Shown one piece after another: positions 5,322-25,566 of a stretch of 57,410 bases of DNA. Within the stretch, counting starts at the first letter, position 1, and every line of letters begins with the position of its first letter. The notes beneath the pieces were generated by a model. It had not been told where the DNA came from and did not search any database. It saw nothing but the letters and a program-made list of their open reading frames with translations. This stretch comes from a candidate division FCPU426 bacterium (GTDB taxonomy: Bacteria > Oederibacteriota > Muellerivitia > Muellerivitales > Muellerivitaceae): positions 1 to 57,410 of the forward strand of contig PLZG01000099.1 of NCBI GenBank assembly GCA_003152075.1. Direction: 5' to 3'. A program made the translations under genes and the position numbers.

Positions 5322-5570
5322 AGAAAGACGGGTTTAGGTTTTTAATTTAAACTCTGAACATTGGGGCCAGGCAATCTACCTTCGCTAAAGCTTCGGTTGA
5401 CAAGCCAATTAAGGGACCAAGGTGCCAACACATTACATTTTAGAATTTCCCCGCCCTCCCGCGATCCATCCCCGTTTTTCCAACCCTTTTGGGTTTTAAT
5501 CATTACCCTCCTTAAGCCATAGAACTGTAATCCGGTAGGGTGGAAGAGAATAACTTAATCATACCTATTG
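5322..5570. repeat. Intergenic mosaic repeat, copy A
   Basis: Two modules of a dispersed repeat are visible: TTTAGAATTTCCCC and CCCGCGATCC around 5438-5468, matched at 11016 and 16974, and a TTCCAACCCTTTTGG stretch around 5478-5520, matched at 11069 and 18535. No gene is supported. Confidence 0.55.
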
Positions 5571-5666
5571 TCAGGGGAGGGGCTCGCCCAGAGGCTTGCC
5601 CTTTTGGGCGGCTTCGATATCCGCCTTGGGGATGCGGATGAGGTCCAAGAAAGCGCTGCTCAGGGG
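5571..5666 (-). pseudogene. Duplicated 3' end of the neighbouring GT39 gene
   Basis: These ~96 bases match 6330-6427, the last ~30 codons of the glycosyltransferase gene 760 bp away, with only about five differences and the same stop codon. On the - strand it still reads FLDLIRIPKADIEAA...GEPLP. No start exists, so this is a fragment. It abuts the stop codon of the lipoprotein gene at 5667. Confidence 0.8.
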
Positions 5667-6077: not shown

Positions 6078-6329
6078 AGCCACAACCTCCATTGAAAATT
6101 TGGGATGGATTTAGTTTAGCCGAGGGGCTCCACACGGGCACCAATTTCATTTTTCTGTGAAATTGGCACACCCAAGGCTTGCCCCTCAGCTTGAGGCCTC
6201 GTGGCAGGGGTTTTGCCCATGGATTGCGACGCGGCGACTTTCAGGGGAATGGGACTAGTCCCTAAAAATCCCCCTTGTTTTGACGCTTTAGCCAGGCCAA
6301 AAGTTCCCCCGTAACCCCTTAATAGATGG
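6078..6329. repeat. Spacer with variable-stem hairpin, copy F
   Basis: CCAATTTCA (6141-6149) pairs with TGAAATTGG (6158-6166) around an 8-base loop and is followed by CACACCCAAGGCTT. The same tail follows a hairpin with a different stem at 9205-9231. No gene is supported in the spacer. Confidence 0.6.
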
Positions 6330-8594
6330 TCAGGGGAGGGGCTCGCCCAGGGGCTTGCCCTTTTGGGCGGCTTCGATATCCGCCTTAGGGATGCGGATGA
6401 GGTCCAAGAAAACGCTGCCCGAGGGGTCCTTGACCTGGGTTTCTACCGCATGGGGGTAATAACGCCCGAACCCCTCCTTGAACGGCAGTAGTTTTTCCGG
6501 GGGGGAAAGCACGGCCACGTCCCGGTTCACCGGGTTAAGGATGGGCAGGGGAAGTTCGTCGGACACCTGGGTGACCTGGAGAGGGCCAATGCCCGAGAAG
6601 AAATAGATGATGGACGAATAGGAATCGTTTTGGCAGACTAGGTGGCAGGTGGGGAACAATACCTTGTCCAACTTCGCCAACTGTACATGCTGGTAACCCA
6701 GGTTCCCCCATTTGGAAGGCTGGTCGGCGAAACGGAAGTAATAGATGTTCGCGTTCAAGACCAGGGCCGATAACAGGCCCGCCCCCAGGAAAATCCTGGC
6801 CGCTACCCCCATGGCCGGGCGCGTCTGGGCGAATATTTCCAAAAGCCACTGGCAGGCCCGGGCCACCATCAGCATGAGGAAGGGAAAAATAAAGAACATC
6901 CTCATGGGGTTGACGTAATCCACGCTGGCGTCAGCGCCCTGGATGACCAGGGCGTTGGCCGCGACCCCGAAAACAACGCCGGAAAGGGCCGCCCAACTGA
7001 CGCGTTTGTTGAGGGCGAAGAGCGTCAGGATGGCCCCGACCAAAAGCAGCAGGCCGGTGAAGGGGTCCAGCAGGGGGTTCCCCAGGACCATGAACCGGTC
7101 GTCCGCGTGGCCGGTCGTCCAAAAGAAGGAAAGCAAGGTCCAAAGGGTGGTCTTGACCGGCAGCCAGAAATGGCCCGTTCGGGCAACTTCGTTGAAGATG
7201 TTCATGGATTGGATGCGTCCGAAAAATTCCTGGGGCTCGGCCACGCAAAAACGGATGAAGGACCCGAGAAACCAAAGCATGGTCAGCAGAGAAAGAAGCA
7301 GGGGCCTTGCGTAAGCTTTGAGGAAGGGCCCACCGCCGGCCGCCAGGCCGCACCCCAGGACGATGAAAAGGGCGATGAGGGGCACGAAGCGGCCGGGCAG
7401 GTAACTCATGACGCTGGCCGCCAGGAAAATCCCGGCCCACCAGAAGTGGCTCCTGCGGCCTTCCTGGAAGGCCCTTTCGAGGAAATAAAAGGCGCACAAC
7501 TCGAAGAGAAGGGTACTGACGGCGCTGAAGGGGGAGAAGGCGAAGTACAAATGCCACCAGGAGACGGTGAAAAGAAGGGCGGCGACCCAGGAGGCCCGGG
7601 GCCCGAAATAAAGGCGGCACCAGCGGTAAAAAACGAAAATCGCCAACATGGAAAGGGTCAGGGAAAAAATCCGGGAGGAAGCCAGGCTGACGCCGAACAG
7701 TTTGTAAACCACGGCCTTCAAAAAGTAAGGCAGGGCGGGGGATCCGCTCCAAGCGGTCCGGAAGGGGTCGGTCAGGTCCCCATTCACCACGTCCGCCGGG
7801 CCGAGGGCGTCCGAGGCCTCGTCCAATTGGAAACCGGCGAACAAATGGTTGAGGAAGGGGTAACGCATCAAGGCCGCCAGGGCCAGTAAAAGGAGGATCG
7901 CCTTCGCCTCCGAAGGGAAGGGGACATGGTTTCGCGTTTCCCGGCGCTTCCATCGCAATAGCCCGATCAAAACCGCCGAGAGGCCCAAGGCCCCCATGCC
8001 CACCCGCAAGTGGTCGAGGTGGAAAAATAATTCCATGGCCAACCAAAGAAGCGGGAGAAGGAAAAGAATCCCGATGTGGAGGGTGCGGTCCTTCGGGGCG
8101 GACCGGGGATAGGCGTCGGCCGGGGCAACCCGCGACAGGGGAGGGAAGGCCTCCAGAAGGCCCCAGGCGGACAGGTAGAAAAGAGGCAATCCCCTGGCCC
8201 AATCCAGGGTTGGACCGGCGATCAAGCCGCTTCCAAACCACCCAGCCGCGAGCCCCAAGGCCAGTGCAAACCAGCGGAACCCGGAAGGAAGGGTTTGGAA
8301 GGGAAGGTCGCCTTTTCCCAGGCGGGCAAAAAAGGTCTCCCGGGTTTGGTGGCGCGGCCGGCCCCGTCCTGAGGGCTTGGGATGCTTTTTGGGTTTTTTC
8401 CCCTTGGGAGCGGAATAAAAAATCCGCCAGGCCTTCCCTCGGAGATGCCCCAGCCAGGTGAAATCCAGCAGGGGCCAATAATAAAAGAACCCGGCCAGTG
8501 GGAAAAAGGGGAAGGAGGCAAGCCATTGGGCGCGGAAAAGGAAAACCAGGCCGGTGATCAGCGAGGTAAAGGCCAAAACCAAATATGGATCCAT
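6330..8594 (-). CDS. GT39-type membrane glycosyltransferase
   Basis: A 754-residue polytopic protein. Residues ~230-600 have the ArnT/PMT-like GT-C layout: an Asp-Glu pair (QLDEA, residues 258-259) in the first large extracytoplasmic loop, then many membrane segments (SRIFSLTLSMLAIFVFY, WAALSGVVFG). Such enzymes move a sugar from a polyprenyl phosphate donor to a protein, lipid or glycan outside the membrane. An extra ~225-residue N-terminal part has several membrane segments separated by a basic stretch (KGKKPKK), which is unusual. Residues ~620-754 are soluble. GGAAG precedes the ATG at a fair distance. The substrate is unknown. The many Ser/Thr-rich exported proteins nearby are possible acceptors, by inference only. 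A piece of its 3' end is duplicated downstream. Confidence 0.8.
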   Translation of the reverse strand: MDPYLVLAFTSLITGLVFLFRAQWLASFPFFPLAGFFYYWPLLDFTWLGHLRGKAWRIFYSAPKGKKPKKHPKPSGRGRPRHQTRETFFARLGKGDLPFQTLPSGFRWFALALGLAAGWFGSGLIAGPTLDWARGLPLFYLSAWGLLEAFPPLSRVAPADAYPRSAPKDRTLHIGILFLLPLLWLAMELFFHLDHLRVGMGALGLSAVLIGLLRWKRRETRNHVPFPSEAKAILLLLALAALMRYPFLNHLFAGFQLDEASDALGPADVVNGDLTDPFRTAWSGSPALPYFLKAVVYKLFGVSLASSRIFSLTLSMLAIFVFYRWCRLYFGPRASWVAALLFTVSWWHLYFAFSPFSAVSTLLFELCAFYFLERAFQEGRRSHFWWAGIFLAASVMSYLPGRFVPLIALFIVLGCGLAAGGGPFLKAYARPLLLSLLTMLWFLGSFIRFCVAEPQEFFGRIQSMNIFNEVARTGHFWLPVKTTLWTLLSFFWTTGHADDRFMVLGNPLLDPFTGLLLLVGAILTLFALNKRVSWAALSGVVFGVAANALVIQGADASVDYVNPMRMFFIFPFLMLMVARACQWLLEIFAQTRPAMGVAARIFLGAGLLSALVLNANIYYFRFADQPSKWGNLGYQHVQLAKLDKVLFPTCHLVCQNDSYSSIIYFFSGIGPLQVTQVSDELPLPILNPVNRDVAVLSPPEKLLPFKEGFGRYYPHAVETQVKDPSGSVFLDLIRIPKADIEAAQKGKPLGEPLP

Positions 8595-8721
8595 TAAAAA
8601 TATCTTCCTTTTGGCGGCGATTTGAAACCCTTCAGATATCTACTATATTACCCCATCCCGTTGATGCCTTTTTGCTTTTTCAGCAAGCTAAGAGTAATCC
8701 TAACGAAGAAGGAAAATGACC

Positions 8722-8805
8722 ATGCCCCGCAACTCAATTGAAAATCCAACCAGGATTTGCGGGACGATGATCATCACAGCGATCCTATTTTTAAAAGGAA
8801 AATGA
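8722..8805 (+). CDS. 27-residue leader ORF, copy 1
   Basis: ATG 8722 has AAGGAAAATGACC upstream, almost the same ribosome site as the next gene, and runs 27 codons to TGA 8803-8805, two bases before the ATG at 8808. It begins MPRNSIENPTRICG, continues as a hydrophobic stretch (IITAILFL) and ends KGK. The paralogous locus at 17243 has the same length, position and ends, with about five substitutions. Conservation of frame and length argues that it is translated, either as a tiny membrane peptide or as a leader controlling the downstream gene. The hydrophobic part resembles a piece of a DUF2892 helix. Function unknown. Confidence 0.55.
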   Translation: MPRNSIENPTRICGTMIITAILFLKGK

Positions 8806-8807
8806 CC

Positions 8808-9188
8808 ATGCAATCAGAAAAATACACCCCGGGGGTTTGCAATATCGGCCCTCTGGAACGTATACACCGCCTGACGGCGGGCTGGATTGGAACCGGGGCT
8901 TTCATCGGCCTGCTTCTTTATTTCCGCGTGAGCGAGTTCGCGAAAACGGCCAACTTCTACCTGCTGATTCCCGCGCTCTTGAGATCCATCGGGTTTCTGC
9001 AAAATCACCTTCACTTTTGCGTTAATTTCGGCCTGAGGGGACTAATGAACATGGATAAGTAAGCCTTCGATACGGAAAAGGTGGAGCAGGCGGAGTACCG
9101 CCGTTTGGACCGCCAAAGGGCCTGGGGGATCATCGGCATGGGGGTAGGGATCAGCCTCGCCGCCACCCTGGCGGCTTATTTCCTGTAA
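8808..9188 (+). pseudogene. YgaP/DUF2892-like membrane protein, copy 1, nonsense mutation
   Basis: This matches the intact 126-residue paralogue at 17329 along its whole length. A TAA at 9060-9062 replaces an AAA Lys codon (one base change), cutting the protein to 84 residues after LRGLMNMDK. The frame beyond the stop is still good (AFDTEKVEQAEYRRLDRQ, then a C-terminal hydrophobic segment) up to TAA 9188. The first part carries the two-helix region (ERIHRLTAGWIGTGAF, TANFYLLIPALL). The decay seems recent. The truncated product might still insert in the membrane. Start ATG 8808 is placed by AAGGA eight bases upstream; ATG 8802 is too close to it. Confidence 0.75.
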
Positions 9189-9417
9189 GAAGGGAACAAG
9201 GATCTGCTGATTCCTTAATCGGGAATCAGCACACCCAAGGCTTTTGCCTCAACTGTATTTTCAGCAAAGGGGCCAATGGCTCGTTTTCTTTCTGCCCCGG
9301 TTTTCGCCGTCCCCCTGACTGGTTGTCCCGGCCCCTTAAAAACCTTTGTTTGAGGGCATTTACTTTGCTTTCTTCTCGATTATGGAATTATCCAGCTCTT
9401 TTCATCACTATATAAGG
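9189..9417. repeat. Spacer with variable-stem hairpin, copy E
   Basis: TGCTGATTCC (9205-9214) pairs perfectly with GGAATCAGCA (9222-9231) around a 7-base loop TTAATCG, followed by CACCCAAGG. Compared with the hairpin at 18392, two stem positions differ on both arms so that pairing is kept. Immediately before the next start, TATAAGG abuts the ATG at 9418. Confidence 0.65.
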
Positions 9418-10974
9418 ATGAATAAAACAGTCCATCCCCATTTTAAGTTAGGAGTCCTTCTTTTATTCCTCCCCCTGGGGGTTCCCCCGGCCTGGGGCCA
9501 GGTCATTACGACCATCGCGGGAAACGGGGTTTACGGTTATTCGGGTGACGGCGGTTTGGGTACGGCGGCCCAGGTTAAAAGCCCCCTAGCCGTGATTACG
9601 GACAACACGGGGAACGTCTTCTTCGTAGATGACAATAATAACCGTATCCGGCGGGTGGACGCGGCCACCGGCATCATCACCACGGTGGCGGGCAATGGCA
9701 CCTATGGTTACACGGGGGATGGCGGGCCAGCCACTGCCGCTGAGTTCGCTTCTCCCATCGCCGTTGGACTGGACGCCGCCGGGAACCTTTATATCGCCGA
9801 CCAATTCGCCCAGGTCATCCGCCGCGTGGACGTCGTCACCGGGATCATCACCACGGTGGTGGGCAACGGAACCACGGGTTATTCGGGGGATGGCGGGCCC
9901 GCCACGGCCGCCGTGCTAAATTTTCCCGTGGGCCTGGCGGTGAACCTGGCGGGCGACCTCTTTATCATCGACTCAGGCAACTTCCGTGTCCGGCGGGTGG
10001 ACGCGGCCACTGGGATCATCACCACGGTGGCGGGCAACGGAACCGCGGGCACCTCGGGCGACGGTGGGCCGGCCACCTCGGCCCAACTTTTAGACAACGA
10101 AAATTTGACCGTGGATCTCCAGGGCAACCTTTATATCGCGGGAGGGGTGAGCGCCTACCGGGTGAGGCGGGTGGACGCTGTCACCGGTATCATCACCACG
10201 GTGGCCGGCAATGGGGGCATTGGTTACACGGGGGACGGCGGGCCGGCAACCTCGGCCACTTTCAATTATCCGGGCTCGGTGGCCTTGGACAGTTCGGGTA
10301 ATTTGTACATCGGGGACGAGATGAACGAGGTGATCCGGAAAGTGGACATGTCCACGGGTATCATCACCACGGTGGTGGGGAGCGGGGCCCCGGGATATTG
10401 CGGCGACTCGATCCCGGCCCTTTCGGCCTGCCTGTCCCATCCGGAGAACGTTTGCGTGAGCGCCCTGGGCGACATGTTCATCGCCGATACCAACAATTAC
10501 CGGGTCCGTAAAGTGAGCAACATTGTCCATATCCCCACGCCCACGCCTACCCAAACGCCAACCCTGACCCCAACCGCCACACCCACCCAAAGCCCCACCA
10601 CAACGCCAAGCTTCTCTCCCACCAACAGTCCGACCACAACGGTAACCCCCAGCCCAACTTCCACCTTCACGATCACCCCGACCCTTACCCCGACTTGCGA
10701 AACGCATGTTTGGCCGAATCCCTTCAATCCCCTATACGCCGTGTGGGGGAAGCTTAAGGTAGATTGCCTGCCGGTGGGCGCACGGGTTTCCTTTTACACC
10801 CTTTCGGGCGAAAGGGTCCGGACCCTGGGCGAATCGGGCGGGCTGGTGGAATGGGACGGGCGCAACGAATCGGGGACGCCGGTTTCAGCAGGGACCTATT
10901 ATTACGTCATTCAAAACGGTTCCAACGTCCTGCGACGGGGAAAAATATTGGTGATCCTCAATGGAGGAAAATGA
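9418..10974 (+). CDS. Exported NHL-repeat beta-propeller protein with FlgD-like C-terminus
   Basis: A 518-residue exported protein. ATG 9418 gives a clean signal peptide (MNKTVHPHFKLGVLLLFLP, cut near AWGQ); in-frame starts at 9346 and 9382 would put ~24 or 12 extra residues before it. Six NHL-type repeats of ~57 residues carry GDGGPATAA, NLYIAD and IRRVD signatures. A ~50-residue Pro-Thr linker (PTPTPTQTPTLTPT) joins a FlgD-like C-terminal module (WPNPFNPL, WDGRNESGTPVSAGTYYY) ending in KILVILNGGK. It is probably surface displayed, with the propeller as the binding part. It stands alone between repeat-bearing spacers. Confidence 0.85.
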   Translation: MNKTVHPHFKLGVLLLFLPLGVPPAWGQVITTIAGNGVYGYSGDGGLGTAAQVKSPLAVITDNTGNVFFVDDNNNRIRRVDAATGIITTVAGNGTYGYTGDGGPATAAEFASPIAVGLDAAGNLYIADQFAQVIRRVDVVTGIITTVVGNGTTGYSGDGGPATAAVLNFPVGLAVNLAGDLFIIDSGNFRVRRVDAATGIITTVAGNGTAGTSGDGGPATSAQLLDNENLTVDLQGNLYIAGGVSAYRVRRVDAVTGIITTVAGNGGIGYTGDGGPATSATFNYPGSVALDSSGNLYIGDEMNEVIRKVDMSTGIITTVVGSGAPGYCGDSIPALSACLSHPENVCVSALGDMFIADTNNYRVRKVSNIVHIPTPTPTQTPTLTPTATPTQSPTTTPSFSPTNSPTTTVTPSPTSTFTITPTLTPTCETHVWPNPFNPLYAVWGKLKVDCLPVGARVSFYTLSGERVRTLGESGGLVEWDGRNESGTPVSAGTYYYVIQNGSNVLRRGKILVILNGGK

Positions 10975-11235
10975 AAATAGGGACCGGCATAACGGGGAAC
11001 TCCTGACCAACATTTAACACTTTAGAATTCACTCGCCCTCTTCTGATTCGGCCTCCCATTTCCCAACCCCTTTGGCATTAAATCATTTTCCGTTCTTGAG
11101 TCGCACACTCAAACCTCGCCCTTCAACTTGTATCGATTCCAATGGAATGATAGGCCTAAAACATCTGACATTTTTTGTAAACTCGACACGGGCCGAGCCG
11201 AAAAAACTCCCTTGATGCAATTTACCGCTTATTTA
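10975..11235. repeat. Intergenic mosaic repeat, copy B
   Basis: Modules shared with other spacers are CACTTTAGAATTC (11013-11025), CCATTTCCCAACCCC with AAATCATTTTCC (11056-11090), a hairpin TTGAG/CTCAA (11096-11112) followed by ACCTCGCCCTTC, and the inverted repeat ATTCCA-A-TGGAAT (11136-11148). No gene is supported in this stretch. Confidence 0.6.
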
Positions 11236-11273
11236 CTTGAGGAACCCATAAGGGGGGAATAGTATCCCCTTAT
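11236..11273 (+). promoter_or_regulatory. Leader with hairpin over the ribosome site of a PT-linker lipoprotein
   Basis: ATAAGGGG (11248-11255) and CCCCTTAT (11266-11273) form an 8-bp perfect stem that takes in the only Shine-Dalgarno-like run and the first bases of the ATG at 11272. The preceding CTTGAGGAA and the AGGGGGGAATA recur 15-16 bases apart upstream of the related lipoprotein gene at 26988. The fold could lower translation initiation; this is inferred from pairing only. Confidence 0.5.
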
Positions 11274-12171
11274 GAATCTCCTCTCGAAAATTGGGATATT
11301 CGGAATTTTTTTCTTCCTCCTGGGCTTTGCCCTTTTCGCCGGCTGTTCCAGCAACAACAACCCAAGCTCGCCCGCGGCGGCCAACATCCCCTTGTTCACC
11401 AAAACCCCCACCAACAACCCGACGAATTCGACTACGCCGACTTCGTCGGCAACGCTCACCGCTACGCCGAGTTACACGAATAGTGGAACTGCTTCACCAA
11501 CGAACAGCCCCACGCACAGCCCAACCCCCAGTCCGACGAATACGACTATGAACTCACCAACCATCACACCGACTAATTCGCCTACGAATAGCCCCACCAT
11601 TACACCAACTAATACGGCTACCAACACCCCCACCAGCACGCCTAGCAATTCACCCACCGTCACGCCCTGCACCACCCCCATGCAATTTGGCCCCACCCCT
11701 GCCGCTACCATCGGTTCGGAGGTGGGATATGTGATGGTCTGCCAGCCGGTCACCCTGACCAGCCCAATTTACGTGAACAGCATGGCAGTGGATGTGGCCG
11801 GGTCTCCCACCCAAATGAGGGTGGGCATTTACACCAACCAGGTCATATCCGGGGGTGTCTCCGTGCAGAACTACCCCGATAGCCTGGTGACGGTTTCCGG
11901 CTATCAGGACCTCAACCCCGGTTTCAATTCCTACCCCGTACCCTCGGCCTACCTGAGCGCCGTTGGGGGTGGAACAATTTATTGGCTGGCCTATGGCGGC
12001 ACCGACAGCACGCTTACTTACAACTTCTACACCAACGGTGCCACTAACGCCTGGGGCCTTGCCCATTACAACGGCAGTGCCTACGTTGCACCGGGCTTTC
12101 CCGCTGCCTGCAGTATCAACGACGCGGGGGGAGCTTTCGATTCACCTATCATCATGTTAGGTTGCCCCTAA
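11272..12171 (+). CDS. Lipoprotein with Pro/Thr/Ser linker and unknown C-terminal domain
   Basis: A 299-residue lipoprotein: signal MNLLSKIGIFGIFFFLLGF, lipobox LFAGC, then SSNNNPSS. Residues ~40-140 are a low-complexity linker of NSPT/NTPT units. The last ~155 residues (from MQFGPTPAATIGSEVG) form a probable beta-sandwich with GYVMVCQPVTLTSPI and YWLAYGGTDS; the pattern resembles Ig- or CBM-like accessory domains, but I cannot name a family. The signal plus the SSNNNP start is close to that of the gene at 26988, whose C-terminal domain is unrelated. The protein is likely anchored by lipid with the linker holding the domain away from the membrane. Confidence 0.8.
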   Translation: MNLLSKIGIFGIFFFLLGFALFAGCSSNNNPSSPAAANIPLFTKTPTNNPTNSTTPTSSATLTATPSYTNSGTASPTNSPTHSPTPSPTNTTMNSPTITPTNSPTNSPTITPTNTATNTPTSTPSNSPTVTPCTTPMQFGPTPAATIGSEVGYVMVCQPVTLTSPIYVNSMAVDVAGSPTQMRVGIYTNQVISGGVSVQNYPDSLVTVSGYQDLNPGFNSYPVPSAYLSAVGGGTIYWLAYGGTDSTLTYNFYTNGATNAWGLAHYNGSAYVAPGFPAACSINDAGGAFDSPIIMLGCP

Positions 12172-12292
12172 TTCCTGAAAGTCGTCCCGCCCCAGGAAAA
12201 GCCATTTTAAAAGGCAACTTTTACCCCGAACCTGGGCATGTGGTATTCTTGATCCATTGGATTGATTCGAAAGTTCAGGGGTAAACAACTTC

Positions 12293-14338
12293 ATGGGCTG
12301 TTTCAGAAGGATTGTTCTTATAACAGGGTTTTTCCTGGGCTGCGCTTTGCCCCTTTTCGCCCAGGTGACCGGGCTGACCCCTATCCTGGCCCCTTCCGCT
12401 AATTTCGCCCTGGGGTCCCAGAACGGCCTGGTGATGGAATTCCAAGTGACCGGCGGGGCAACCGCCGACTCGGCCACCAGCTTTAATTTCCTCAACAACT
12501 TGGCCTCACCGCCGGCCGCCCAGGGCGGGACGGGACTGCCTTTCGACATTTCCACTTTCAAGCTCTGGTACCAAAGCGGTTCCAGCGTTTTTTCCCCGGC
12601 TTTGAGCACCCCGGTTTCCGTCAGTGCGGTCGCCCCCCTGAACTGGGCCACCCTTTCGGCCAACCTGCCGGTAATGGCCGGAGGCTACCTTTTCCTGACC
12701 GCCGACATTACGTCGACCGCCCAGGTGGGGGACATCTTCGAGTTGTTCATGACGCCCGGTTCGGCGACCTTCAGTTCCGGCTTCAACTATCCCGTCTCGG
12801 GGTCGGTGACCAATACCAGCCCTCAAACTATCGTGTCGGTGGGAACCGCCACCAACCTTTCCCTGGTCAATGTCCCCAACGGAAATTTAACCCCGGGAAC
12901 CAACGACAACTTGGTGCTTCAATTGACCGTCGCCACAACCGGAACCGCGGTGTTCCAAACCATCCAGGTGGCCAATCAATTGAGCGCGGTAGGTTCCACC
13001 GACATTTCCAACGTGAAGCTTTGGACCCAGACCGGCGGGGGGACTTTCAACGCCTCCACCGCGGTGGAGCTGGCTACCCTGCCGAACACGGGCTCGAAAA
13101 CCTGGGGAATGAGCGCGGCCTTGAATTGGAATGTCAACAACGGAGACGGCCTTTACGTGACGGCGGATATCTTGGGAAGCGCCACCCCGGGCAATACCTG
13201 CAATTTTTCCGTGCCCCTCAACGGAGTTGTTTTCAGCAACGGGAGCCTGCCCCCCGGGGTCCTGGTTAATGTCGGCGTTCAAACTATTCCCCCGCTCACC
13301 CCCACGCCCAGCTTTACCCCCACCCCACCCCCCACTTCCACCCCTACGGACACACCCACCGCGACGAATACCCCTGCCATTCCGAACTTGTTTAGCCTGG
13401 GCCCTTCCAGCGGCGGGACCGGGGGCGGTTACACTATTAGCCTGACCGGGTCCAGTTTGCTGGGGGCGGTGACCGTGACCATCGGGGGAACGGCGGCCAG
13501 TGTGGTGAGCGATAGCACGGGGACGATTGTGGTGACCGTGCCACCGGGAGTGGGGGCCAACCTAGCGGTAATTGCCAGGATCAACGGAATTAACAGCAAC
13601 ACCCTTCTCTTCAGCTACCTTCCCCCGTCGATTTCCAGCTTGAATCCCGTTTCGGGCCTGGTCGCGGGGGGCTACCCGGTTACGATTTCGGGAAATAATT
13701 TTTCCCCGGTGGCCCTGGTGACCTTCAACGGCGTGACCGCCCCCTTGAGCGGCGCCTCGGTGACGCAATTGATTGTCACCGCGCCCGCGGGAAGCGCCGG
13801 GTCGGCCCCGGTGACCGTTGCGGTGGCCGGCCAAACCGCCACGAACGCGGCTTTCACCTACCTGGTAGCCACCCCCACCTTTACCTCCACACCGACCAAT
13901 AGCTTTACACCAACCAACAGCCCCACCAACACCTTCTCACCCACCCCGACCTTTACCCCAACCAGCACCAATACACCGCTGCCTACCCATACCTTTACGC
14001 CGACCTACACCCCGACCTTTACACCGACGGGTTCCTTGACCCCAACCCCCACGCCCAACATCCCTTTGTACCTGGACCAGAATTATTTTGACCCCGGCAA
14101 GGGCGGCCTGGGCATGGATGTGCGGGTGGACCAAATGGGCGGGGTGAAACTTGAAGTTTTCAACCTAGCCGGGCAATTGGTCCGTGTCATCGCGGACCTC
14201 TCCGAGAGCCCGGGCAATTACCGGTTCAAATGGGATGGGCGAAATGGCGCCGGTGCCTTGGTGGGAAACGGCATTTATATGGTCGTCATCCGGACAGCTT
14301 CGGGCAACAAGATCCAAAAAGTCATTATTCTAAAATAA
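12293..14338 (+). CDS. Exported IPT/TIG-domain protein with FlgD-like C-terminus
   Basis: A 681-residue exported protein with a signal peptide (RRIVLITGFFLGCALPLFAQ). Residues ~30-340 hold two long beta-rich repeats with the pattern ISTFKLWYQSGS...LNWATL and ISNVKLWTQTGG...LNWNVN, each followed by LTADI or VTADI. A short PT linker leads to two IPT/TIG domains (PSSGGTGGGYTISLTGSSL and PVSGLVAGGYPVTISGNNF), then a second ~60-residue PT linker and a FlgD-like C-terminal module (VEVFN-like LEVFNLAGQLV, WDGRNGAGALVGNGIY) ending KVIILK. An AGGGGT run precedes the ATG, and an extended -10-like TGGTATTCT lies at 12241-12249. Its likely role is cell-surface adhesion or ligand binding. Confidence 0.82.
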   Translation: MGCFRRIVLITGFFLGCALPLFAQVTGLTPILAPSANFALGSQNGLVMEFQVTGGATADSATSFNFLNNLASPPAAQGGTGLPFDISTFKLWYQSGSSVFSPALSTPVSVSAVAPLNWATLSANLPVMAGGYLFLTADITSTAQVGDIFELFMTPGSATFSSGFNYPVSGSVTNTSPQTIVSVGTATNLSLVNVPNGNLTPGTNDNLVLQLTVATTGTAVFQTIQVANQLSAVGSTDISNVKLWTQTGGGTFNASTAVELATLPNTGSKTWGMSAALNWNVNNGDGLYVTADILGSATPGNTCNFSVPLNGVVFSNGSLPPGVLVNVGVQTIPPLTPTPSFTPTPPPTSTPTDTPTATNTPAIPNLFSLGPSSGGTGGGYTISLTGSSLLGAVTVTIGGTAASVVSDSTGTIVVTVPPGVGANLAVIARINGINSNTLLFSYLPPSISSLNPVSGLVAGGYPVTISGNNFSPVALVTFNGVTAPLSGASVTQLIVTAPAGSAGSAPVTVAVAGQTATNAAFTYLVATPTFTSTPTNSFTPTNSPTNTFSPTPTFTPTSTNTPLPTHTFTPTYTPTFTPTGSLTPTPTPNIPLYLDQNYFDPGKGGLGMDVRVDQMGGVKLEVFNLAGQLVRVIADLSESPGNYRFKWDGRNGAGALVGNGIYMVVIRTASGNKIQKVIILK

Positions 14339-14471
14339 CGCTCTTGGGCGGGACGCCAATTCCTTTACCTCCTGGAATAGGCACACTCAAAACCCCATGA
14401 ATGCAATCGAGGAGGGTGGTTTGTTGGGATCGGATTGAAGGGAAACAAATGAGCCAAAAACAAACCTGTCT

Positions 14472-16829
14472 TTATTTTTCGCGATCAGCCTTTGCTTCCT
14501 GAATTTTCCCGTCCAACGCCGTCTTCCAAAAAAGAGCGTAACCTTTCAACGTCTTCCTGGCCGAGGCGTATTCCTCGACCGCTTTGGCGGAATCGCCTAA
14601 ATCCGAATCAATATCACCCAGTATGATTTCGGCTTTCGCCCGGTTGAACACATAACCGTTTTCTTCCAACACCTGGATGGCTTTTACAGCGTAGGCCCGA
14701 GCCTCATTCATTTGGGTTATGTCCTTCGATTGCTTTGCCAAAACCAACTCCAGTCGCGCCGTATTCATCCAATGTTCCCCTTGGGAATCGGCTTCTTTAG
14801 GCTTTTCGCAATATTTCATGAAGTAATCCAGTAATTCTCCGGCCTTACCCCTTGTCCCCGGGTCCTCTTTCAATGACAAGTAATAGGAATAGGCCTCGCA
14901 TAGGTCGCTTCGGAAACCGCATTGGTCCGGGGAGTCCGCCTTCAAAAGGGAAAGGGAAGTTTCGATTTTTCCGATCGCGGCGAGCAAAAGACCCGCATCC
15001 TTGTCTTGCCAACCCTTCAGCATCCCTAAAAGTCCCAAATCGTAGTTGGAGTGGATCCAATCGTCAGAAGTGGTTTCCGACCCCAGCATCTTTAAAGATT
15101 CGTTTATATTTTCCTCACCTTTTTCGAGATAGAGGGGGTCCCGATAAGCTTCCGCCAAATAAGCGTAATAGGCGCCTTTTAATCCGTCTAGTTGGGCCCA
15201 TTGCTCCGGCATGGTTTCTTTGGTGTTGACGCTTTGGATGTCCTCGCAAGCTTGGATGGCCTCCAAAAGGAGGGCTCTATCCCTTGTTCGGGTCCCCAGA
15301 AACCTTGAGACAATACCCATGTTCTGCCGGTTCTGGGCCCATAAGATCGGGTTCTGTTCTTTCGGCAAAATCGCCATGGATTCCCTCATGGTGACCAAGG
15401 ATTGGTTGAGGGTGGTCTTATCGTCATTTTTAAAATGTCCCAGCGACATCTGGGTGCAGCCCAGGTCGCTCAGGGCCACGGCCAGGGCGTAGGAATAATT
15501 GGCTTGGCGGTAGGCCGTGACGGCTTGCTGGCATAGGTCGATAGCCTTTAAGTCGTCCGTTTGGCTGTGGCGCATTTCGCCCAACCGAAAATAAGCGGTC
15601 GAAGTGTTCAGCTGAAGCATGGCCACATCCATGGGAGCGAAAGTAACCTTGGCCTCCTTCAAAGCCGCTAGGTAATGGTCCAGGGCCAGTTGGAAAGTCT
15701 TCAGGTCGGGGTTCTTCTCGCCCAACGACACATAGGCGGTGGCGAGGCCGTTTTGGAGATAGGCCCACCGGGCCGGGTCGGAGAGGCGGGTACTGCCCTT
15801 TAGTCCTTCCTGAAAGGCCGCAATGGCATCCCGAAGGGTACGGTCGCCGTTCTCGCGCTGGCCCAGGCGGACAAGGGCGTTTCCCAAGTTGAGTTGTGCG
15901 CTGGAATATCCAAAGGGGTCTGAGCGGGGCTTGATGAACTGGAGGGCGTTCCGGCAGGCTTTGACCGAGTCCTGAAGGTCCTTCGGAGATGATTCCGCTT
16001 CCCCCAAGCCTTCCAACATGCAGGCCAAGTTACTTTGGTCCTCGGCCCAGGCCATGAAATGCTCGGAGTCGGGATAACTTTCCGCGATCTCGCGGACGAG
16101 CGCGACCGCCCTCCTCAAAGTGGGGATATCGTGGGTTGAATTGGCGTAACTGCAAAGAGGTATGCTTAAGCTCCGCTTTAATTCCCTCAGGGTCCCCGGA
16201 TTCCATCTTTTTTGCTGCGCATCCCCCAGCAGGGAGTAAATCTTCACGTCCAAGCCCTGAAGTTGCCCAGAAAGGTCCATGCCCTTGCTTTTCTCAATGA
16301 GCCCGGCCCAACCCTCCACGATCCACCGCACGATTTCGGAGGTATCGCTTTCCGCGACACCTCTCAGGTAAACCACCCGGTGCATGGAGAAACCTTCCGA
16401 GCGGACCGCCGACTGGACATGGTTGGAAACCGAGAAGTAAATGTTCCACTTGCCGCCCGGCGACATTTCGTTTTGGTCCCCCCAAATGAGAAGGTCGGCT
16501 TTGGTCTGGGCGAGGATATATTCGGCGTCCGCGAATCCCGCCTCCAAAGTATGGCCCGGTCCCAGGGAAACGGGGCGGGAAAGCTCTATCACTTTCATGT
16601 TGTTGACCTGGCGAAATTCGTCGGCGATGTTTTTTTGCAGTTCGCGCCCCTCTCCGCCTTTGCCATCCTTTGTCTCAAAGGGGGCTATGGCCAGGACCAG
16701 AACTTTGCCTTCGCTGACGGGGGTGGGGGTATTCTCGAAAAAGGACAAGCCGAAAAGTGGGGAAAGGTTGACCAGGAAAATGGAAAAAAGGGTAACGGGC
16801 CAATGGGGCCGGTGGAAAAGATATTTCAT
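14472..16829 (-). CDS. Exported TPR protein with TolB/FlgO-like N-terminal domain
   Basis: A 785-residue protein with a signal peptide (MKYLFHRPHWPVTLFSIFL). Residues ~40-190 (VLVLAIAPFETKDG, FRQVNNMKVIEL, KADLLIWGDQNE) resemble the TolB-type domain found in FlgO and in adenylate-cyclase-associated TPR proteins. The rest is roughly twelve TPR-like helical hairpins (SAQLNLGNALVRLGQ, QNGLATAYVSLGEKN). AAGGAA lies at good distance from the ATG. It faces the IPT/TIG gene convergently and is bounded by a repeat-rich spacer upstream. Probably a periplasmic protein-interaction scaffold; partners unknown. Confidence 0.78.
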   Translation of the reverse strand: MKYLFHRPHWPVTLFSIFLVNLSPLFGLSFFENTPTPVSEGKVLVLAIAPFETKDGKGGEGRELQKNIADEFRQVNNMKVIELSRPVSLGPGHTLEAGFADAEYILAQTKADLLIWGDQNEMSPGGKWNIYFSVSNHVQSAVRSEGFSMHRVVYLRGVAESDTSEIVRWIVEGWAGLIEKSKGMDLSGQLQGLDVKIYSLLGDAQQKRWNPGTLRELKRSLSIPLCSYANSTHDIPTLRRAVALVREIAESYPDSEHFMAWAEDQSNLACMLEGLGEAESSPKDLQDSVKACRNALQFIKPRSDPFGYSSAQLNLGNALVRLGQRENGDRTLRDAIAAFQEGLKGSTRLSDPARWAYLQNGLATAYVSLGEKNPDLKTFQLALDHYLAALKEAKVTFAPMDVAMLQLNTSTAYFRLGEMRHSQTDDLKAIDLCQQAVTAYRQANYSYALAVALSDLGCTQMSLGHFKNDDKTTLNQSLVTMRESMAILPKEQNPILWAQNRQNMGIVSRFLGTRTRDRALLLEAIQACEDIQSVNTKETMPEQWAQLDGLKGAYYAYLAEAYRDPLYLEKGEENINESLKMLGSETTSDDWIHSNYDLGLLGMLKGWQDKDAGLLLAAIGKIETSLSLLKADSPDQCGFRSDLCEAYSYYLSLKEDPGTRGKAGELLDYFMKYCEKPKEADSQGEHWMNTARLELVLAKQSKDITQMNEARAYAVKAIQVLEENGYVFNRAKAEIILGDIDSDLGDSAKAVEEYASARKTLKGYALFWKTALDGKIQEAKADREK

Positions 16830-17242
16830 GGGTGGGATTTCCTTTGTTGGGGAATTTCCAAAAGCTTAACATCAGTTATAAAAATTGGTCCTTGAATTAA
16901 GTCGCATTTAAGCCATTAAATAGGCTCTCTTTTCCCGCTTCTCGTAAATAAAGGGGTTATTACACTTTAGAATTTTCCCTTCCCTCCCGCGATCCTTGAG
17001 CCAATTCCTTGTTTGGGAATTGGCTCAATCAAATCTCGCCCTTCGTCCTGCATCCATTCCATTGGAATGGATAGGGCCAATTCATGTGACTCGTCTTGTG
17101 GACTCGTCACCGGATGGGCAGAATAAACGCCCTTGCTGACCTCGGGGCAGATGCCATTTCTAATTATTTTTCCCCATCCCATTGCTTCCACTTTCTGTTT
17201 CTAGCAAGCTAAGAGTAAGCCACAACACGAAAGGAAATGACC
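16830..17242. repeat. Intergenic mosaic repeat, copy C
   Basis: This is the best ordered copy. It has CACTTTAGAATTTTCCC (16970-16986), then a perfect 13-bp hairpin TTGAGCCAATTCC (16996-17008)/GGAATTGGCTCAA (17016-17028) with loop TTGTTTG, then a CTCGCCCTTCG tail, then the inverted repeat ATCCATTCCA/TGGAATGGAT (17052-17072), then GTGACTCGTCTTGTGG and a CCTCGGGGCAGATGCC end. The part from ~17170 is the duplicated leader shared with 8649 onward (GCAAGCTAAGAGTAA). No other gene is supported. Confidence 0.65.
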
Positions 17243-17326
17243 ATGCCCCGCAACTCAATTGAAAATCCAACAAGGATTTGCGGGACGATAGTCATCTCAT
17301 CAATCCCATTTCTGAAAGGAAAGTGA
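17243..17326 (+). CDS. 27-residue leader ORF, copy 2
   Basis: ATG 17243 has AAGGAAATGACC upstream and encodes 27 residues beginning MPRNSIENPTRICG and ending FLKGK, stopping at TGA 17324-17326, two bases before the membrane protein start at 17329. Length, spacing and both ends match the copy at 8722; differences fall mostly in the hydrophobic middle. The arrangement suggests translational coupling through the overlap of stop and ribosome site. No family recognised. Confidence 0.58.
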   Translation: MPRNSIENPTRICGTIVISSIPFLKGK

Positions 17327-17328
17327 CC

Positions 17329-17709
17329 ATGCAAACAGAGAAATACACCCCGGGGGTCTGCAATATCGGCCCCCAGGAACGAATACACCGCCTGACGGCG
17401 GGCTGGATTGGAACCGTGGCTTTTATCGGCCTGTTCATCTATTTCCGCATGGATGTGTTCCCGAAAACGGCCAACTTCTACCTGCTGATCCCCGCGCTGT
17501 TGGGATCCATCGGGTTCCTGCAAAACTACTTCCACTTTTGCGTCAATTTTGGCCTGAGGGGATTGATGAACATGGATAAGAAAGCCTTCGACACCGACAA
17601 GGTGGAGCAGGCGGAGTACCGCCGTTTGGACCGGCAAAAGTCTTGGCAGATCATCGGCATGGGGGTGGGGGTCAGCCTCGCCGCCACCTTGGCGGCTTAT
17701 TTGCTCTGA
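17329..17709 (+). CDS. YgaP/DUF2892-like membrane protein, copy 2 (intact)
   Basis: A 126-residue small membrane protein. Residues ~15-75 contain the YgaP/DUF2892-like two-helix region (ERIHRLTAGWIGTVAFIGL, TANFYLLIPALLGSIGFLQ); after a charged stretch (KKAFDTDKVEQAEYRRLDR) a third hydrophobic segment closes the protein. DUF2892 proteins are small inner-membrane proteins, some fused to rhodanese domains; function here is unknown. AAAGGA lies eight bases before ATG 17329. It is the intact paralogue of the broken gene at 8808, and the duplicated unit of ~540 bp includes the 27-codon leader ORF. Confidence 0.72.
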   Translation: MQTEKYTPGVCNIGPQERIHRLTAGWIGTVAFIGLFIYFRMDVFPKTANFYLLIPALLGSIGFLQNYFHFCVNFGLRGLMNMDKKAFDTDKVEQAEYRRLDRQKSWQIIGMGVGVSLAATLAAYLL

Positions 17710-17880
17710 CCGGAAAAGGGTCAGTGGTTCGATGCGCTTCGCTTACTCGCCATCCTTTCCAAGATTCAAAATTAGGCAAGGGTAATTCCTTTTACGTCTC
17801 TCCCTACCACCATTAAACAAAACCTCCGGACTCGGACTCAAAAGAGCTAAGATCGAGCTAGTCAAAAAAACGGGGTTACC

Positions 17881-18363
17881 ATGAAAAAAGCAACACTCGA
17901 TCGCGCGAACGTTCTCTTGTTTCCACCTTTAATTCCTTTGGGAGTCATCCTTGCCAGCGTGATAATGGGTTACGGCCTTCCACTTGAGCGACAGACACCC
18001 CATGTGACCAGCGGCTGGTGGCTGGCGGTTGGAATCATCCTGAGCGGGGTAGGGCTCGCCCTTGTTGTTTCCGCCCTGGTTTTATTCAAGAAACATCAAA
18101 CCCCGCCCCAACCCCACAAACCCACCAGGAAGATCGTGAGCGTCGGCCCTTACCGATACACCCGCAACCCGATGTACCTGGGCGGGAACCTGGTTCTCCT
18201 GGGGCTGTCCTTCCTTTTCTACCTGCCCTGGATTTGGTTTTTGTTTTTAATCGGCTTGCCGATCAACCACTGGGGAATTGTTTTGGCGGAAGAGGAATAC
18301 CTGGAAAGAAAATTCGGCAAGAAGTACCGGGATTACAAAAAAACCGTCCGGCGGTGGATTTAA
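17881..18363 (+). CDS. Membrane methyltransferase, ICMT/PEMT-like
   Basis: A 160-residue protein with about four membrane segments. The C-terminal half has the isoprenylcysteine carboxyl/phospholipid methyltransferase pattern: GPYRYTRNPMYLGG, then a hydrophobic hairpin and EEEYLERKFGKKYRDYKK. In this fold the RNPMY and the EEE..L...FG..Y..Y motifs bind S-adenosylmethionine at the cytoplasmic face. The bacterial substrate is generally unknown and could be a lipid or a small hydrophobic molecule. The gene stands alone between repeat spacers. Confidence 0.85.
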   Translation: MKKATLDRANVLLFPPLIPLGVILASVIMGYGLPLERQTPHVTSGWWLAVGIILSGVGLALVVSALVLFKKHQTPPQPHKPTRKIVSVGPYRYTRNPMYLGGNLVLLGLSFLFYLPWIWFLFLIGLPINHWGIVLAEEEYLERKFGKKYRDYKKTVRRWI

Positions 18364-18760
18364 CCTTAGAAATTACTTCCCGCGCCCCGGTTGCCAATTC
18401 CTTATTTGGGAATTGGCACAATCAAAACCCGCCTTCATCTTGTGGATTCACCAACCGCTCAAAACGGTTGGTACTACCAATACTCGCCACTCGCCTAGTA
18501 GGCTCGCAGCAGGTGGCAGGGCAGATGTCCCGTTTTCCCAACCCTTTTGGTTTGTTATTCATTTCCCCTTCTTAAACCGCTCGATAACCATTCCTTGTTC
18601 TCGCTTCCATTCCTGAATGGAAGCGAAGCGCCTGTTACCAGACACATCATCTCGGCCTCACCTGGTAGGTCCTTAACGCCGAAGCGGGCTAAAAACGCCC
18701 TTCGTGGAATTGCCACCTCCTCAGTCACTGTTTAGGCACTTTTAACATTTAACAAAGCCA
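18364..18760. repeat. Intergenic mosaic repeat, copy D
   Basis: CTTAGAAATT is followed by hairpin TGCCAATTCC (18392-18401)/GGAATTGGCA (18409-18418) with loop TTATTTG; the tail CACAATCAAAACCCGCCTTC; hairpin ACCAACCG/CGGTTGGT (18450-18472) with a 7-base loop; module TTTTCCCAACCCTTTTGG (18532-18549); hairpin CGCTTCCATTC/GAATGGAAGCG (18602-18625); then GCCTGTTACCAGACACATCATCT-type sequence also present at 23560. No gene is supported here. Confidence 0.65.
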
Positions 18761-23320: not shown

Positions 23321-23778
23321 AATGATTTTTTTAATCATTTCCCCTTCTTCGCCAATTACATGTTCTTGAGGAATACCATCTGTTTTTTTAAATTTGGAAC
23401 AAATTGCCCGCGAGCAGGCACAGCACCTTGTTTCCGTTCGGCTTGTAGCCTCACGACAGGTGTCGGCACTTCCACCCGTCAGCCTTTCGGCTGAAGACGA
23501 TAAAAATCATCTAATCTTGCTTTTCGGTTTGGATCCATCCATTGGAATGGATAGGAAGTGCCTGTTATCAGGCACATCACCTTGTGACTCGCATCGTGGG
23601 TCCTCTCGGGACGGATAAATAAAACGCCATTCATAACCTCAGGGAAGAGGCCTTTTAACGTTACGATACGCTCCCAAAAACCAACCTCCTCCGATGATGG
23701 GGAGTGGTAAGCTATCTCAACTCTTTCCAAGATTTGGTATTTCTTACCTATCTGTTTAACTAATTTGCCGGGTGACCC
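23321..23778. repeat. Intergenic mosaic repeat, copy H
   Basis: Shared modules are TTAATCATTTCCCCTTCTTC (23331-23350); a TGCC...GGCA hairpin near 23404 followed by TAGCCTCACGACAGG; ATCCATCCATTGGAATGGAT (23533-23552), an inverted repeat with one base lost from the left arm; and hairpin GTGCCTG/CAGGCAC (23558-23575) with loop TTAT. The block ends with AACCTCAGGGAAGAGGCC. No gene is supported. Confidence 0.6.
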
Positions 23779-25566
23779 ATGGCGAAAAATGACTCGAATT
23801 TCTTTCCTTTCCTCAAGAGGGCTTTGGGCCCCCTTCTTTTCTTTTTCGCCTTAATTCCTGGCGGAGTTTTGGGGCAAACAGCCACCGCCACCCCTTGCGG
23901 GGCGGGGACCACCACTAACCTCAGCTGGAGCACCCAAGCCCCCATGCCGGGCGCGCTGGCCTATTTTGGGGCGGGTGTGGTCAATGGGCTTGTTTACGCC
24001 GTAGGCGGGCAAATCCCAACCGGCGCGAACACAAACGCCGTGGAATACTATGACCCCATCGCCAACACTTGGACGACCGGACTGGCCCCCATGCCGACCG
24101 CCCGTAGCGTATTTGGAACGGGTGTGATCAATGGAATTATTTACGCGGTGGGAGGGACCAGCAGTACCACGACCGCTTTAAGCACGTTGGAAGCCTATAA
24201 CCCCGCCACCAATACATGGACAACGCTCGCCCCCATGCCGACCCCCCGCTATTCTTTGACCGTGAGTGTGGTGAACGGGATTCTTTATGCCATTGGCGGG
24301 GCGAATCTTGGCGGAAACACAAACGTGGTGGAAGCCTATGATCCCACCACCAACACATGGACCACCATGGCCCCCATGCCGACGCCCCGTGATTATCTTT
24401 CCTCGGGTGTGGCGAATGGAATTATTTACGCCGTTGGAGGTTACAACGCCGGCAGTCTTTTAACCACGGTGGAAGCCTATAACCCCGCAACCAATAGCTG
24501 GACCACCGTGGCATCCCTGCCGGCCGCAATTAACGCCTCGTCCGTGGCAGTGTTGAACGGCGTGCTTTACCAGGTGGGCGGAACATACCAGTCCTCCACC
24601 ACCAACACGGCGGAAACCTATGACCCCATCAGCAATACTTGGTCCGCTGGGCCTCCCATGCCCACTTCCCGCGGTGAGTTGTCCTCGGTGGTGGTCAATG
24701 GGTCTTTATACGCCATTGGCGGCTGGACCTTGACTGGTTATTTACCTACGAATGAGAAATTGACCCAGGCTTGCGCCCCGAGTGGCCCAACCAACACCCC
24801 CACGCAAACCCCCACCAATAGCCCGACATTTACCCCGACACCTTCTCCGACCATTACCCCTCCCTCAACTCCCACGAACAGTCCCACGAGAACCGTTACC
24901 CCAACGGCCACCTCTACGGTGACCCAAACCTTTAGCTCAACCGCTACTAAAACCGCGACTTTTTCGCCAACCGTAACCCGGACGATGACCCCAACCAATA
25001 GCCCGACCAACAGTTTGACCCCGACGAACAGCCCCACAACAACCGATACCTTGACGGCCACCTCCACCCCGACTCAAACCGCTACCCCAACCGTTTCCAG
25101 TACCGCGACTATTTCGCCGACCCTAACCCCGACTATGACCGCGACCAATAGCCCCACCTTGACCAATACATCAACGGTCACTAACACCCCAACCATCACC
25201 GCCACCCCGACTATTTCTTACACCGCCACCAACAGCCCCACCAAAACCCCGACCTTGAGCCCTACCCCCACGCCGGTGGATATTTTTTACGTGGACAAGA
25301 ATTTGTTCGAACCCTCAACCGATAAAAAGTTAAACATCCTGGTTGATTACAACCAATTTCCGGGGGTCTTCAACCTGCGCATTTACAATACGGCGGGGGA
25401 ATATATCAAGAGCTTGGACACGAAAAACCTCACCGGACCCATCAACAAGGCCTATACCTGGGATGGGACCAACTGGAAAGGGGATAACTGCGCCAGCGGG
25501 GTGTACTTCTTCCATCTCATGGAGCCTTACAGCCGGAAGGTGAAAAGAATACTTTTGGTGAGGTAA
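23779..25566 (+). CDS. Exported Kelch-repeat protein with FlgD-like C-terminus
   Basis: A 595-residue protein with a signal peptide (FFPFLKRALGPLLFFFALIP, cut near VLGQ). Six Kelch repeats fill residues ~45-335, each with NGIIYAVGG, EAYNPATNTW and APMPTPR elements, forming one beta-propeller. A linker of ~160 residues built from NSPT, TPTM and STPT units follows, then a FlgD-like C-terminal module (FYVDKNLFEPSTD, LRIYNTAGEYIKSL, WDGTNWKGDNCASGVYFF) ending KRILLVR. Architecture parallels the NHL and IPT/TIG proteins: variable binding domain, PT linker, common C-terminus. The convergent downstream gene is separated by a likely bidirectional terminator. Confidence 0.85.
   Translation: MAKNDSNFFPFLKRALGPLLFFFALIPGGVLGQTATATPCGAGTTTNLSWSTQAPMPGALAYFGAGVVNGLVYAVGGQIPTGANTNAVEYYDPIANTWTTGLAPMPTARSVFGTGVINGIIYAVGGTSSTTTALSTLEAYNPATNTWTTLAPMPTPRYSLTVSVVNGILYAIGGANLGGNTNVVEAYDPTTNTWTTMAPMPTPRDYLSSGVANGIIYAVGGYNAGSLLTTVEAYNPATNSWTTVASLPAAINASSVAVLNGVLYQVGGTYQSSTTNTAETYDPISNTWSAGPPMPTSRGELSSVVVNGSLYAIGGWTLTGYLPTNEKLTQACAPSGPTNTPTQTPTNSPTFTPTPSPTITPPSTPTNSPTRTVTPTATSTVTQTFSSTATKTATFSPTVTRTMTPTNSPTNSLTPTNSPTTTDTLTATSTPTQTATPTVSSTATISPTLTPTMTATNSPTLTNTSTVTNTPTITATPTISYTATNSPTKTPTLSPTPTPVDIFYVDKNLFEPSTDKKLNILVDYNQFPGVFNLRIYNTAGEYIKSLDTKNLTGPINKAYTWDGTNWKGDNCASGVYFFHLMEPYSRKVKRILLVR

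Follow-up and report, generated by a model that had tools for sequence, protein, structure and literature searches.

A short palindromic element, mobile and paired as DNA, in the genome of a candidate division FCPU426 bacterium

The DNA analysed here, hereafter the window, is the entire contig PLZG01000099.1 (57,410 nucleotides; C33) from the 4.10-Mb genome, in 114 contigs, of a candidate division FCPU426 bacterium of the family Muellerivitaceae (GCA_003152075.1). It carries dispersed hairpins whose arms differ between copies while remaining complementary to each other, and these hairpins belong to a multi-copy element of about 68 nucleotides. Mismatch counts and comparison with related genomes show that the pairing of this element is maintained at the level of DNA and that its copies are mobile. 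The reading favoured here, with a probability of about 0.72, is that of a non-autonomous mobile DNA element restricted to one family, about 66–70 bp in length and composed of palindromes only, which moves as folded DNA; that the moving substrate is single-stranded is what we infer.

An earlier note on this DNA had described hairpins at 9205-9231, 16996-17028 and 18392-18418 with the loops TTAATCG, TTGTTTG and TTATTTG. They are present as described, as are the two pairs altered on both arms between the first (CTGATTCC/GGAATCAG) and the third (CCAATTCC/GGAATTGG), together with the relatives at 6141 and at 11096, the latter retaining linker and tail with a broken first stem. The hairpins are dispersed, as claimed, and form part of a larger phenomenon, but 'intergenic' applies only in part, since many copies in related species lie within genes. 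At 6141, 9205, 17001 and 18394 the hairpin is P1, the first stem of the element (about 66-70 bp), in which the alignment of copies gives the order P1, linker, about 6 nt, second stem (P2) and tail. P1 consists of nine pairs and a short loop; the linker reads ACA-xyC-AA with variable xy, and the tail CAG-y'x'-G; P2 comprises an outer stem of five pairs, a 2x2 mismatch TC/TC, an inner stem of three pairs and the loop TTGAG or TTGTG. The linker was seen to vary with the tail, and the third helix formed by tail y'x' with linker xyC (P3) held when tested, the linker triplet being exactly complemented by the tail in 100 of 139 distinct copies against 22 in shuffled data (maximum 37 in 5000 shuffles). 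Nested copies account for a second set of hairpins in the same note: those at 17052 and 18450 are real, each being the P1 stem of an additional copy lodged within one of the first ones, and those at 11136, 18602 and 23533 resemble the P1 stems of a sub-type (ATCCATTCC..GGAATGGAT). The copies and related hairpins of the window are given below, with scores from models R1 and R2, the latter including P3 and trained on own-genome copies only.

6138 to 6210, plus strand: complete element with P1 CACCAATTTC..GAAATTGG, linker ACACCCAA, P2 and tail CAGGGG (R1 match, 78 bits); it shares the flank GGCTCC(A/C)CACGGGCACC with a copy at C99:17297.
9204 to 9272, plus strand: complete element with divergent, compensated stems, P1 GCTGATTCC/GGAATCAGC, P2 TTGCC..GCAA and tail AAGGGG (R1, 73.1 bits).
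11096 to 11153, plus strand: decayed element, P1 broken and linker CACACTCAAACCTCGCCCTTCAACTTG retained (direct-repeat family D20).
11131 to 11154: sub-type hairpin TATCGATTCCAATGGAATGATAGG, splitting P2 of the preceding element.
14353 to 14414, plus strand: decayed element with P1 CCAATTCC..GGAATAGG and linker ACACTCAA, P2 lost (R1, 28.5 bits).
16996 to 17153, plus strand: composite, an outer element split by a nested copy, with P1 at 16996-17028, the 5' arm of P2 at 17035-17049 and the remainder, the 3' arm of P2 and the tail (CTGACCTCGGGGCAGATG), at 17136-17153.
17050 to 17135, plus strand: sub-type B copy nested in the outer P2 loop, with P1 GCATCCATTCCATTGGAATGGAT, P2, tail and an extra hairpin GGGCAGAATAAACGCCC (R2, 54.5 bits).
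18391 to 18527, plus strand: composite, an outer element split by a nested copy, with P1 at 18391-18419, the 5' arm of P2 at 18430-18449 and its 3' arm and the tail at 18512-18527 (R2, 54.2 bits); a sister copy lies at C99:15543.
18448 to 18515, plus strand: nested copy with P1 ACCAACCG..CGGTTGGT, linker ACTACCAA, P2 and tail AGGTG (R1, 41.4 bits; R2, 51.6 bits).
18600 to 18628, plus strand: P1-like hairpin CTCGCTTCCATTCCTGAATGGAAGCGAAG, a sub-type relative, read directly from the sequence.
23404 to 23462, plus strand: decayed element retaining P2 and the tail CAGGTG (R2, 22.8 bits, E = 6e-4).
About 23530 to 23553: sub-type hairpin beside the preceding element.

A short hairpin, (A)GTGCCTG..CAGGCACA, also recurs in or beside elements (L069, L004, L071 and window 18628-18648) and is possibly a third sub-type.

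The element is abundant in its own genome and confined to the family of its host. Allowing up to 3 mismatches, the P1 pattern CCAATTCCTTNTTTGGGAATTGG matched the genome eight times and its reversed control not once, and the linker pattern was found at 11 sites, several with a very different P1 (including GGAGCC/GGCTCC and CAGTTC/GAACTG). A covariance-model search returned 79 matches at E<=1, about 64 of these below 1e-3. The genome thus holds some 65-79 copies, and copy numbers here are lower bounds because the first-look filter scored only part of the candidates. The element occurred in all eight sampled genomes of this family of uncultured bacteria, whereas the 37 other genomes of the phylum had none.

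The statistical covariation test proposed in the earlier note was run, and arm differences prove to be compensated more often than expected by chance. The seed set of 11 copies already has changes on both sides at 13 of its 17 pairs, with no G·U intermediates. All 17 modelled pairs covary among 65 copies of the own genome (covariation 0.656 against 0.221 after shuffling). The same holds for 21 of 21 pairs among 70 copies from seven related genomes outside the training set, candidates that were gathered with R1 and hence resemble the own copies, a procedure which selects the fold and not which letters change. Double-change cells in these relatives number 342 against 89 after shuffling, and the slid controls all scored far lower.

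A strand selected to fold as RNA tolerates G·U and not A·C, so that the remaining mismatches distinguish the two kinds of pairing. Counted over all cells, the relatives hold 21 G·T and 43 A·C mismatches and the own copies 51 and 66 (72:109 in total); over internal pairs, own copies and relatives together hold 66 G·T against 83 A·C. A tRNA control from the same genomes, restricted to the acceptor and T stems of 39 tRNAs at fixed positions because ARAGORN marks only paired positions, gave 20 G·T against 1 A·C (Fisher p = 7e-6). Since G·T mismatches show no excess over A·C, unlike in tRNAs, the pairing is maintained at the DNA level, which shows that folded RNA is not the selected form and that the fold is kept as DNA. 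Rfam gave no match at the gathering threshold in the window, and only weak sub-threshold matches in six loci elsewhere. Three sources of the paired substitutions had been offered in the earlier note: folded RNA is contradicted by these counts and by the lack of an Rfam match; single-stranded DNA agrees with the preservation of P1, P2 and P3 as DNA helices of Watson-Crick pairs that surround conserved unpaired bases; and a mechanism rewriting both arms agrees with several loci of whole-arm replacement or mismatch-to-perfect conversion. The latter two may both be at work. Covariation is usually taken as proof of a functional RNA, and here it is very strong though the pairing is at the DNA level; counting G·T against A·C mismatches is thus a simple test for separating DNA palindromes from RNAs in genome scans.

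Mobility is documented by orthologous genes with and without the element, one empty site lying in the window itself.

38092 to 38106, plus strand: empty insertion site ATCCAGGTTGGGACT in the isoleucyl-tRNA synthetase (IleRS) gene 37312-40149, as seen when L104 and L110 are aligned with the window.

This gene was identified by Pfam tRNA-synt_1 (E = 6e-132); gene calls here are open frames without annotation, and all other gene names were read off translations. The window reads ATCCAGGTTGGG at 38092-38103, and the orthologue in G007 reads CCAGGTG-element-CCCAGGTGGGG, in frame. Further empty sites were found in orthologues of an AddA/UvrD-type helicase (L141 against L105), L117, DnaE (L132), L116 and a PhoR-type histidine kinase (L065). 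Sub-type B copies are nested in the P2 loop of other copies in L058, L059, L066, L070 and window 17050-17135, and other copies are nested further left in P2 (L068, L081, L075). Read from this comparison of genomes, the orthologues lacking copies, the nesting and the insertions in genes show that copies move.

At several sites, target copies of about 6 bp flank both ends of the element: CCAGGTG in IleRS, GACCGTA in L141, GCCCAGGGG in L116, CTGGGG at a tRNA-Thr gene, E(K/R) codons in L065 and the residues AL at umuC. The 5' flank agrees with the tail more closely than in shuffled data; in two settings, near-full matches were reached in 4 and in 1 out of 1000 shuffles. As this match is found in only a minority of all copies, a target copy as the general rule was dropped, and it is described only as frequent. 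Since the tail equals the target copy at several sites, the linker is probably a short guide fitting the element to its insertion site, a role suggested by the sequence pattern; with the guide-like helix P3, target choice by short DNA-DNA pairing becomes directly testable.

Insertion within genes follows one reading frame. Thirty-three copies lie deep in long open frames, 27 of them in the direction of the gene, and 25 of these 27 use frame 2, even though each of the forward frames is frequently open (103, 89 and 70 times among 135 copies). Copies are in frame in IleRS, DnaE, UmuC and others, with a predicted peptide of roughly A-x-S-x-x-E-x-A-Q-P-N-x-x-x-R-x-E-A-S-x-Q-x. Because the element is readable in one forward frame, insertions in genes, essential ones included, are evidently tolerated, as about 22 extra predicted residues.

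Comparison of shared loci indicates how the arms come to differ. Two species of one genus have copies at umuC whose linkers match over 14 bases and whose P1 stems differ by one compensated pair, yet P2 is unrelated between the two and palindromic in each; at a tRNA-Thr gene, two species of another genus have copies with a single base difference in P2 and unrelated P1 stems. The TC/TC mismatch is retained in 105 of 148 copies, and pairing at that position is therefore not favoured. Nine copies nevertheless show perfect pairing there; in five of these the mismatch has become TC/GA, a change by two transversions, and one-step intermediates number only two. Of the three paralogues compared in G005, one has this conversion and two do not, and one copy lost P1 pairing without compensation. 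Template switching makes such arm changes (PMC8794818). The stem swaps and mismatch-to-perfect conversions fit arm-templated copying that acts alongside selection for pairing in those copies that move.

A mechanism may be outlined from these features. The element would move as folded DNA, with a single strand as the presumed substrate and the moving enzyme probably supplied in trans. The linker xyC, beside hairpin P2, would pair with the 3' tail Gy'x', which copies the target at several sites. Copies unable to fold would fail to move on, and the arms would thus stay complementary while their sequence drifts; the whole-stem swaps and conversions further suggest that one arm serves as template for the other when DNA is synthesised. 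A more far-reaching version, in which a single-stranded DNA element has its target chosen by guide pairing of 3-4 nt of the linker, has both arms rewritten by hairpin-templated synthesis during movement and adds in-frame peptides to essential genes, is quite doubtful as a whole. If true, stem sequence would be free while pairing stays perfect, and a guide-targeted DNA palindrome, driven by an enzyme of whatever type, would be at hand.

Several observations weigh against the mobile-element interpretation or parts of it. The target copy is absent at L117, most intergenic copies lack the 5' match, and the target-copy cases were partly picked by eye. Whole-stem swaps at shared loci could instead arise from re-insertion or recombination between copies. 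Nor is a transposase tied to the element: Y1_Tnp (PF01797) had no match in the own genome or in G006, and no element copies were found near the Y1 genes of relatives. Y1_Tnp occurs in six of the eight family genomes, G007 having only a weak partial match. Y1 transposase-like proteins of about 320 aa are encoded at L190-L194 (G001-G004), with several copies in G002 and none in G000 or G006. A Y1 transposase as partner was rejected, being missing here and unlinked to copies in relatives. The idea that decay tracks the absence of Y1 was likewise dropped for lack of correlation, non-Watson-Crick positions amounting to 12.9% in G000 but to 5.3% in G006, also without Y1.

These Y1 results bear directly on the rival that survives best, a REP-type element moved by a REP-associated Y1 (HUH) transposase that cuts folded single-stranded DNA, with the linker as cleavage-site guide. 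A putative guide directly 5' of a hairpin, a complementary tail, a conserved in-stem mismatch and tandem copies speak for it, similar parts mattering in REP/TnpA-REP and IS200/IS605 (PMC8266576), as do the Y1 proteins of several relatives. The domain is nevertheless missing from the genome with most copies, and the Y1 genes present elsewhere have no adjoining copies; there is no GTAG tag, its position being taken by CA-xyC-AA with variable xy; copies lie in coding genes, and two-sided target copies resemble duplication. We regard this origin as doubtful.

Absence of any selection, with ordinary repeats whose arms are equalised only by quasi-palindrome template switching in replication, is unlikely. 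The process is known (PMC8794818), and it would produce the whole-stem swaps and the TC/TC to TC/GA conversions, but it leaves unexplained the conserved unpaired bases, P3 across P2, the spread to new sites and the constant frame, and decayed copies with uncompensated arms exist.

Less credible still is a multi-copy structured RNA (cis-regulator, small RNA or ribozyme) held by selection on an RNA fold. Strong covariation with conserved unpaired bases would suit such an RNA, and intergenic copies of the own genome follow the direction of flanking genes (42 of 58 upstream, 46 of 61 downstream). The wobble test largely refutes it, however, G·U not being preferred over A·C; no Rfam family matches, and copies are found in unrelated genes in one frame, nested in each other and missing from orthologues.

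Integron-like recombination sites (attC) followed by gene cassettes are the least probable alternative, since same-direction runs of copies behind genes on several contigs and a folded single-stranded recombination site, which would explain pairing without wobble, are set against ends lacking the GTT core, insertions that are single in-gene elements without cassettes, and no integron integrase above cut-off among the nine tyrosine recombinases scanned (of 12; best TIGR02249 match 142 bits, cut-off 265). Nor was any exact gain or loss of one gene together with one site seen between close strains, an event that would favour this reading. Three adjacent tyrosine recombinase genes (L096 and L092, G000 C16:871-3280) resemble a recombinase-in-trio element. 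Related integrases of about 370 aa occur at L097-L100 (C41, C31, C82, C102), perhaps also on C67 and C78, and several of this size adjoin tRNA genes (C78:4405, C41:2256, C67:3564, C82:70321).

Other repeats accompany the elements. An 84% identical repeat at window 8644-8943 and 17165-17464 holds a small membrane-protein gene (CNIGPxERIHRLTAGWIG), each copy adjoining an element. PMT_2-type gene fragments, 90-94% identical, lie near elements at window 5567-5666 and 6326-6425 and at L059 1699-1894 and 1797-2078, and these fragments seem to have been copied along with elements. Long Thr-Pro-rich coding repeats with 12-base periodicity were also observed (window 10532-10694, 11405-11680, 13285-14057, 24785-25277 and 57007-57405), some preceding FlgD-like C-terminal domains.

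Among organelle double-hairpin elements we know of no guide-like third helix. Those of the fungus Allomyces are likewise small, mobile, multi-hairpin elements found in genes and side by side (PMC2800124), but they belong to organelle genomes and reportedly lack flanking target duplications. Nematomorpha mitochondrial genes contain palindromes kept in coding sequence as perfect inverted repeats, for which template switching was proposed (PMC6649704); these are long perfect repeats scattered over mitochondrial genes, unlike a mobile repeat with a shared consensus. Rickettsia palindromic elements (RPE) and Wolbachia palindromic elements are similarly short, palindromic, multi-copy repeats, both intergenic and in frame in conserved genes, with no known mobiliser (PMC2229807), and the present IleRS, DnaE and UmuC cases add a further bacterial lineage to such in-frame mobile insertions. 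RPE measure 105-146 bp and have terminal inverted repeats of 12 bp as well as a long stem-loop, and their arms were described as losing identity over time (PMC6649704), whereas the element described here has about 68 nt, two hairpins and a guide-like P3, ends that are not inverted repeats, strongly divergent compensated arms and nested copies. REP elements with TnpA-REP (RAYT) and the ends of IS200/IS605 combine a folded DNA hairpin, whose stem has a short guide on its 5' side, with a cleavage site selected by pairing to that guide and with conserved stem mismatches (PMC8266576). The element resembles them in its layout of putative guide, hairpin and presumed site; the differences lie in the lack of a GTAG tag and of Y1 in the host richest in copies, the frequent insertion in genes and the target copies at both ends. 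As judged from these features, RPE are closest by behaviour and REP and IS200/IS605 ends by layout, and since the element departs from the defining features of RPE (length, terminal repeats) and of REP (Y1, GTAG), it is placed in neither group.

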